Shown: one piece after another, positions 2,561 to 31,280 of the stretch
How the letters are laid out: each line of letters begins with the position of its first letter
How positions within the stretch are numbered: position 1 is the first letter of the stretch
Assembly: GCA_013297725.1 (NCBI GenBank)
Contig: JAAFIB010000007.1
Span: 1-34,526 of the forward strand
From: Sphingomonadales bacterium
Lineage (GTDB): Bacteria; Pseudomonadota; Alphaproteobacteria; Sphingomonadales; Sphingomonadaceae
DNA length: 34,526 nucleotides
Direction: 5' to 3'
Translations under genes and position numbers: made by a program
The notes under the pieces: model-generated
What the model was told of the DNA's origin: nothing
Database searches by the model: none
Seen by the model: only the letters and a program-made list of their open reading frames with translations

Positions 2561-3529
2561 TTACACATTAAAGCCACGAACGGTTTTCAACAAACCATCG
2601 ACTAGCTCTACCAGTGCGACGGGCCGCATTTCTGCATCCCGCGCCCAATATTGCCCGTCGTTCGAGGCTATCCCGGTCAAGACGCGCCCTTCACGGATCG
2701 CCCTTGCCTGTTCCGGGGAGAGATTAAGAGCCGGGATGTCGACCAGCCCTACCTCCAGCGGCAAGATAATGTCTTCTTGGGGCGCGCCTTGGCCGAATGC
2801 GTTCAGTTTGTCCAGCGAAATCGCCTGATCAACGCTGAATGGACCAGCGCGCGTACGGCGAAGCATAGAGACATGGCCGACTGTGCCCAAGGCATGTGCA
2901 ATGTCGCGTGCAAGTGAGCGGATGTAGGTTCCTTTGGAGACATTAGCGGTTATGGTCACTGATGCCACAGCTTCGTCATGCTGAACTTGTTTCAGGGTCC
3001 ATTTCGCCTCTCTACTCTCCGGCCCGTGTGGCACGATGGATGCTGAAACAAGTTCAGCATGACGGACGCAGAGGTTGCGGACAGTAACCAGTCGCGATTT
3101 CATCTCTACCGCTTCACCTGCACGAGCAAGATCATAAGCGCGTTTGCCGTCGATCTTAATTGCTGAATAAGCAGGCGGGATTTGTTCGATTGGTCCTGTG
3201 AAGCGCGGCAACACAGCTTCTATCTCTGCCAATGTCGGCCGATGGTCAGAGGTCGCAACAACCTTCCCTTCCGCATCCAAGCCATCTGTCTCGGTTCCAA
3301 ACATGATCGTGAAATCATATTCTTTGGACGCATCCAGCATCCGCCCGCACAGCTTGGTTGCTTCTCCAATCGCAATGGGTAGCACACCCGTCGCTAGAGG
3401 ATCCAGCGTGCCGCCATGGCCCACCTTCACCTTGCCATAGCCTGCTTCACGCAGATTGCGTTTTACTGCCGCAACAGCCTGTGTCGAGCCGAGGCCCAAG
3501 GGTTTATCAAGAATGATCCAGCCATGCAT
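2561..3529 (-). CDS. truB: tRNA pseudouridine(55) synthase TruB with an in-frame palindromic repeat insertion
   Basis: TruB converts U55 of tRNAs to pseudouridine in the T-loop. The 322-residue protein carries the catalytic motif [12 protein letters not shown] with nucleophile Asp43, the [16 protein letters not shown] motif, and the conserved [13 protein letters not shown] motif around residues 196-208. Residues 156-186 (nucleotides 2972-3064) are extra relative to the family. They begin RHAELVSAS and end LKQVQHDE, and are encoded by two inverted copies of the repeat that also stands between genes at 25381 and 31181. Without them the length is about 291, normal for bacterial TruB. The insertion lies in the connection before the SKGTYIR strand and keeps the frame open, so the enzyme is probably functional. 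It sits in the nusA-infB-rbfA operon just upstream of rpsO. Confidence 0.96.
2972..3064. repeat. Coding palindromic repeat inserted within truB
   Basis: The left arm (2974-2995) and right arm (3043-3064) are exact reverse complements over 22 bases. The pairing continues imperfectly inward around a roughly 35-base middle. Twenty-five bases of the right arm, reverse complemented, are identical to the left arm of the intergenic repeat at 25381-25408. The right arm is itself a hairpin (ATGCTGAA / TTCAGCAT, 5-base loop). Within truB the element is read as 31 codons without a stop, adding residues 156-186. It resembles in behaviour the Rickettsia palindromic elements that insert into protein genes, but the sequence family is different. 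Confidence 0.9.
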
Positions 3530-25358: not shown

Positions 25359-25380
25359 GGGCAGACACGCACAATAAAAT

Positions 25381-25451
25381 CGTCATGCTGAACTTGTTTC
25401 AGCATAACACGCGACATCAGCTCGTTATCCTGAAACGAGTTCAGGATGACG
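25381..25451. repeat. Paired-hairpin (REP/BIME-like) repeat after purB
   Basis: Two 28-base inverted arms (25381-25408 and 25424-25451) flank a 15-base spacer. Each arm is itself a hairpin: ATGCTGAA/TTCAGCAT on the left and ATCCTGAA/TTCAGGAT on the right, each with a 5-base loop. The left/right G-to-C difference is compensated on both sides of the stem. It belongs to the same family as the copies at 31181-31251 and inside truB. It begins 22 bases after the purB stop and could stabilise or terminate that transcript. Confidence 0.92.
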
Positions 25452-25552
25452 AACGGTATATGTGAAGGTTTTAACTGGTGAGAATTGAGGACTGGAAACT
25501 CAAAGAACCTTCCCCTACGATAGCCACCAACCCCTGAAAGGAAGCCAAAACC

Positions 25553-31154: not shown

Positions 31155-31180
31155 TGATGCCATGCATTTTCCTAAACAAT

Positions 31181-31251
31181 CGTCATCCTGAACTTGTTTC
31201 AGGATAACAAACCAGCGTCGCCCGTTATCCTGAAACAAGCTCAGGATGACG
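31181..31251. repeat. Paired-hairpin (REP/BIME-like) repeat between accD and folC
   Basis: The geometry is identical to the copy after purB: 28-base arms at 31181-31208 and 31224-31251 with a 15-base spacer. Both arms are hairpins with the ATCCTGAA/TTCAGGAT stem and a 5-base loop. The spacer sequence differs from that of the other copy. It starts 27 bases after the accD stop. Confidence 0.92.
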
Positions 31252-31280
31252 AAACGAGGTTATTGCCCGCGTCCTAATTT

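Follow-up and report, generated by a model that had tools for sequence, protein, structure and literature searches.

The truB gene of an environmental bacterium with a Sphingorhabdus-like genome (assembly GCA_013297725.1, hereafter G000) contains a palindromic repeat within its reading frame, which raises the question of how such a repeat comes to be carried by a tRNA modification enzyme and why it lies where it does. The window analyzed here is the 34,526-nucleotide stretch of contig JAAFIB010000007.1 that includes this gene. truB (2561..3529, minus strand) encodes a 322-residue tRNA pseudouridine-55 synthase identified from its open reading frame and Pfam matches (TruB_N, E 4.6e-47; TruB_C_2, E 1e-12). 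A single truB was found in the genome (one match at E <= 1e-40), and the best named matches of its product are TruB proteins from Sphingorhabdus species and other Sphingomonadales.

An inverted-repeat search delimits the repeat as a 91-bp dimer (2974..3064, no strand assigned) with CGTC at each outer end and CCA tails pointing inward. By eye, each unit opens with CGTC, continues with an 8-bp stem around a 5-nt loop and closes with CCA. Unit 1 (2974..3001, plus strand) has one mismatch and one wobble pair in its stem; unit 2 (3037..3064, minus strand) has a perfect stem and reads CGTC-ATGCTGAA-CTTGT-TTCAGCAT-CCA. The inverted arms (2974-3002 and 3036-3064) are 29 nt long and 93% complementary. 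They include an exact 22-nt core, which an earlier sequence-only reading of this DNA had described as two exact 22-base arms. That reading had also matched 25 bases to a repeat between purB and a lapA-like gene, and bases 3040-3064 are indeed 100% complementary to 25381-25405. The copy at that place (25378..25453, no strand assigned) is a 71-bp-type dimer that lies within 30 bp after purB (ADSL_C, E 1.9e-24) and precedes an open reading frame whose LapA_dom match is weak (E 1.6e-4) and falls short of the Pfam cut-off. Another intergenic dimer of the 71-bp type (31178..31253, no strand assigned) lies within 30 bp after an accD-like gene, before an open reading frame that was taken for folC, with Pfam support below the cut-off.

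These copies belong to a dispersed family. Using the arm pattern GTCATNCTGAACTTGTTTCAGNAT with up to three mismatches, we identified 77 units in G000, and the reversed pattern that served as control gave none. The truB palindrome is not a product of chance, given this count and the predicted fold of the 103 nt around the dimer as RNA (-52.4 kcal/mol, z = -7.85), which 0 of 200 shuffles equaled. The central claim of the sequence-only reading, a palindromic repeat in frame inside truB, is confirmed. Units matching the arm pattern are present in 36 of 37 same-genus genomes (G000 included); the sole genome with no match, G005, is a single contig assessed as 100% complete. A search of 2900-3144 on both strands returned matches to RF02901 (Aggregatibacter sRNA 41) at 42.1 and 38.8 bits (E 2.1e-8 and 1.7e-7). 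Both scores are well under the gathering score of 97, and we rejected this RNA family as an identity for the stretch; the matches were taken for an effect of the palindrome, and the family itself may contain a related palindrome.

The genome has 42 sites of the arm pattern, and 33 of them are dimers. CGTC starts 32 of the 33 dimers and GACG finishes 30; the truB copy has both. Dimer sizes cluster at 67-72 bp (20 dimers), 88-91 bp (11) and 139-140 bp (2). By eye, a TAAC in the inner part of the 71-bp type places a stop in the RHPELVSG frame, and the longer TCCA type, to which the truB copy belongs, has one frame readable throughout at a suitable length such as 91 bp. We found no excess of 1-9 nt direct repeats indicative of target-site duplication, one of the marks of a MITE, at the 33 dimers, with dimer ends set as CGTC and GACG. 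By its tag, its stem, loop and tail, and its occurrence among dispersed, multicopy inverted dimers, the truB repeat is a CGTC-tagged REP.

Two sphingomonads, E. litoralis and S. alaskensis, bear on the novelty of such an insert. REPs in the truB genes of both, and of S. maltophilia, were reported in 2013 in the paper that defines CGTC REPs (Di Nocera et al., 2013; PMC3733652), so a REP within truB is no novelty as such: in-gene REPs, truB included, are already published as a kind. The text of PMC3733652 describes a CGTC tag, an 8-9 bp stem that opens with A-T and T-A, a loop of 4-5 nt, a short tail such as CCA, and dimers that are mostly intergenic and sometimes intragenic; the G000 units share these features, their 8-bp stem starting A-T, T-A. 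The 8 + 5 geometry matches that given there for CGTC-2. The same text reports intragenic REPs of both the CGTC and GTAG kinds. It adds that the REPs within recB of two Xanthomonas occupy roughly one position, and that other genes in the same functional category have theirs at different positions.

The sequence-only reading had likened the insert to Rickettsia palindromic elements (RPEs), and the comparison is apt. RPEs also form in-frame palindromic inserts in conserved genes, and some of them, RPE-4 and RPE-6, are included among the CGTC REPs in the same superfamily (PMC3733652). R. conorii truB itself contains RPE-1 (PMC3733652; PMC10969869), which differs in being described in PMC3733652 as a longer palindromic insertion. 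GTAG REPs and REPINs, which are associated with RAYT, are likewise short dispersed palindromic dimers. This class was rejected for the truB repeat, since the tag here is CGTC and a search for Y1_Tnp (PF01797) gave no match in G000. The same search gave no match in 23 of 24 same-genus relatives (G023 matches) and a match in 7 of all 41 genomes searched. A RAYT-type transposase was rejected as the mover of the repeats because PF01797 has no match in G000, in agreement with the statement in PMC3733652 that CGTC REPs have no dedicated transposase.

The repeat contributes a coding segment (2972..3064, minus strand) corresponding to TruB residues 156-186, RHAELVSAS...LKQVQHDE. The catalytic D43 and the SKGTYIR motif, starting at residue 198, are both intact and the frame is open, as claimed from the sequence. 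The same reading placed the addition at 31 residues. Its segment boundaries are correct, and the net gain is smaller: the distance from the SAxK anchor to KGTYIR is 77 residues in G000 and 53 in several same-genus TruBs that have no insert, so about 24 residues have been added. A structure model built from 20 sequences (mean pLDDT 75.3) matches known TruB structures, with 1k8w on top, and shows the insert flanked by strands 146-156 and 190-197. The loop of this hairpin (residues 157-189; 2963..3061, minus strand) is the family's recurrent insertion site, and against chain 1r3f_A the insert falls as a gap between residues 163 and 171. As to the surface hairpin raised earlier, the insert between these two strands is modeled at pLDDT below 50 (159-181). 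Residues 264-289 are likewise below 50, so low confidence is not unique to the insert.

We then read this loop across the family, in 142 of the 148 TruB-encoding genomes in a sample of 149. The loops left out were those of G529 and G548, G459 (cut at a contig end), and G540, G471 and G551 (missed by the anchor pattern). A separate insertion scan compared 145 TruBs, a set that lacks G036, G529 and G548 and includes the cut G459, with a 302-residue TruB reference. The loop accounted for all 89 pieces of internal insertion of at least 12 residues, of any origin, and the rest of the protein for none; lowering the threshold to 8 residues gave 116 in the loop and 1 outside it.

The 142 loops comprise 58 short loops, 36 with a palindromic repeat, 35 with a separate conserved long segment and 13 others. 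The sequence-only reading had named as a refutation that most homologues have an equal-length segment with unrelated codons; these counts bear that out in part. In 32 of the 142 loops, the DNA contains an inverted repeat better than all 100 of its shuffles, and such repeats become more frequent as loops lengthen (1/59 short loops, then 3/9, 11/47 and 17/27). Control windows of the same length, taken from the N-terminal portions of these genes, beat all shuffles in 1 of 135 cases. An inverted-repeat score of at least 12 was reached by 33/135 loops and 0/135 control windows. Within the genus, 11 of 36 readable TruB loops contain a REP and 25 have no intact REP, which upholds the expectation that most related TruBs lack the insert. 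The loop also varies among species with no insert.

The conserved long segment, S(A/T)FATTAGRPDPYDPAAPLELAD, occupies the loop in 35 of the 142 genomes (e.g., L086 and L316) and occurs separately from the palindromes; the loop is thus able to hold constrained sequence. Six genomes (G267, G494, G536, G452, G506 and G448) combine a FATTAGRPDPYDPAAPLELAD-like segment with a palindromic or other significant inverted repeat in one loop. Very long loops occur in L063 (G011), L065 (G023) and L066 (G036), where 207, 152 and 133 residues separate the anchor from KGTYIR; they resemble arrays in which more than one type of repeat-derived peptide is strung together. In L362 (G551), a type E palindrome occupies the loop and the SKGTYIR region after it has changed to AKGPKIR; the protein may be a damaged TruB, or the draft may contain an error.

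The 36 palindromic loops were assigned by eye, from DNA arms and peptide motif, to seven types. These are type A (CGTC with a TGAAC stem, 6 loops), A2 (CGTC, CGGACT, 3 loops), B (CGTC, CGCGAAGGCG, 5 loops), C (CCTGTCGAAGG, 6 loops), D (CTCCCCG..CGGGGAG, 11 loops), E (CTCCCCTTCAGGGGAG, 4 loops) and F (1 loop). Unrelated families are fewer than seven, because A, A2 and B have the CGTC tag in common and a C-rich sequence is shared by D, E and F. G474, G539 (p 0.059) and G562 (p 0.43) were typed by motif, and their inverted-repeat test misses p 0.05; G469, G519, G452 and G561 have a significant inverted repeat that falls outside the types.

All five types counted are multicopy, type A in G000 and the others in the counted genomes that carry them in truB. 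Counts were made on both strands, and reversed-pattern controls gave 0; they leave out types A2 and F as well as G480 (C) and G539, G070 and G531 (D), and type A was counted within 61 genomes. Type B has 28 copies in G267, 26 in G575, 14 in G448, 51 in G581 and 8 in G574. Copies of type C number 26 (G536), 62 (G494), 118 (G563), 5 (G463) and 70 (G562), and those of type D 41 (G468), 12 (G508), 9 (G570), 103 (G506), 31 (G586), 21 (G515), 25 (G399) and 8 (G483). Type E is found 29 times in G482, 50 in G543, 4 in G493 and 3 in G490, where two of the three are the truB arms. The truB place is among the matches listed in at least 16 of the type-counted genomes, G551 included. G000 itself has 77 copies of A, 15 of B, 37 of C, 4 of D and 20 of E, and its truB has only A. 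Among 34 named Sphingopyxis loci we found 14 with A or A2, 7 with D, 2 with C, 2 with E and 9 with none or a remnant; this set, like the 80 named loci, is biased to insert-bearing genes because the query contains the insert.

Occupancy of the loop has changed many times. On a FastTree TruB tree of 142 rows with the loop excluded, the distribution of repeat types versus none requires at least 35 changes, with gains and losses not distinguished (129 rows counted, the 13 labeled other or other_IR being omitted). Well supported branches alone force 5 changes each for A, B and C, 7 for D, 4 for E and 3 for A2. A genus tree of 36 loops and five outgroup rows requires at least 8, 7 of them on well supported branches, a rough count because the repeat-bearing outgroup rows named204 and G482 were labeled none by pattern. 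Measured from a fixed codon, the best inverted repeat has its left edge 7-35 nt away in 29 of 31 cases (52 and 93 nt in the other two), and this edge falls in all three codon phases. Type D gives different peptides in its two frames, LPGTGRGT in G468 and SSPARGGGP in G586, and remnant-like loops include CHAEFVSNQVQRD in L187, RGDERGEG in L220 and RHAGLDEETG in L243.

Further in-gene copies occur in G000, where the survey covered the CGTC arm pattern. Three of the 42 arm-pattern sites lie in frame within Pfam-supported proteins: TruB, YbeY (L168:1299-2027, minus strand; PF02130, E 4.8e-31) and an AMP-binding ligase (L172:396-2384, plus strand; PF00501, E 5e-75). The remaining open reading frames across such sites were judged spurious or marginal by eye. 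truB and L172 each hold a 91-bp copy, and the peptide of the YbeY copy suggests the same type. Of at least 98 family genomes with a YbeY match, 52 have both flanking matches among the matches listed, and the insertion site is empty in all 52.

The likely explanation for these observations is repeated landing of palindromes in a permissive TruB hairpin, filtered by selection on TruB. A CGTC-type REP dimer from the genome's own dispersed family, copied by some machinery, would have entered truB at the tip of the beta-hairpin. The reading frame would have stayed open through both arms of the 91-bp dimer because this dimer type has, at such a length, one frame open across both. The hairpin would accept a protruding, probably disordered segment with no loss of TruB function, and insertions would persist there because it tolerates them; the same events elsewhere in TruB would be removed by selection. 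Over time, differing palindromic repeats would enter, erode and be replaced at the loop. We infer that TruB activity is retained with the insert and that the hot spot reflects tolerance rather than targeting. Targeting may act alongside tolerance, since YbeY is the one other in-gene site compared.

A preference of the moving machinery for the truB hairpin DNA, or for its single-stranded form, would account for the convergence of several repeat types on a single loop and for the empty YbeY site in all 52 genomes compared among the matches listed. We regard it as unlikely, as the palindrome is fixed in neither edge nor phase, target-site duplication is not evident around the 33 G000 dimers and the loop itself varies among species with no insert. 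Recruitment is less probable still: the inserted peptide or mRNA hairpin would be useful, for example by altering TruB binding or controlling truB expression. The very stable predicted mRNA hairpin (z -7.85) and the other conserved long segment in the same loop are in keeping with recruitment, as is a comparison of five orthologues with one common insert, in which pN/pS is 0.26 inside the insert and 0.065 outside, values that come from few changes and non-independent pairs. Some constraint on the insert is possible because 0.26 is below 1. Yet peptides differ across repeat types and across frames of one type, an intact REP is missing from 25 of the 36 same-genus loops, remnant-like forms exist and model confidence at the insert is low.

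An assembly artefact or pseudogene is very improbable. In its favor, the assembly is a draft of 148 contigs, and about 2.5 kb separates truB from the end of its contig, which is 66 kb long; against this, the frame is open and in-frame palindromic repeats occupy the same loop in genomes of few contigs (G493, 1; G016, 3; G267, 5). A bolder and unlikely idea is that the hairpin is a true landing pad, which different mobile palindromes would hit above equally tolerant sites, and that an old insertion would now be the constrained FATTAGRPDPYDPAAPLELAD segment. Overall, the earlier interpretation is partly supported.

The part for which we found no report in the literature searched is the recurrence at one TruB loop. 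The text of PMC3733652, supplement and figures aside, describes neither the site within truB nor its reuse by several repeat types, and our literature searches returned, among the entries listed, no statement on repeated use of one truB loop. In the portion of PMC12306157 consulted, the words intragenic, CDS, coding sequence and pseudouridine are absent and 'coding regions' appears twice.

The in-gene palindromic peptides RHAELVSAS and LKQVQHDE are repeat-derived, a warning to annotators who meet such peptides in proteins. With several multicopy palindrome types having entered one enzyme hairpin across the family, its occupied, empty and eroded sites form a natural series. This series makes it testable whether palindromes choose their sites or are merely sieved by protein tolerance, and whether inserts ever turn into useful protein.
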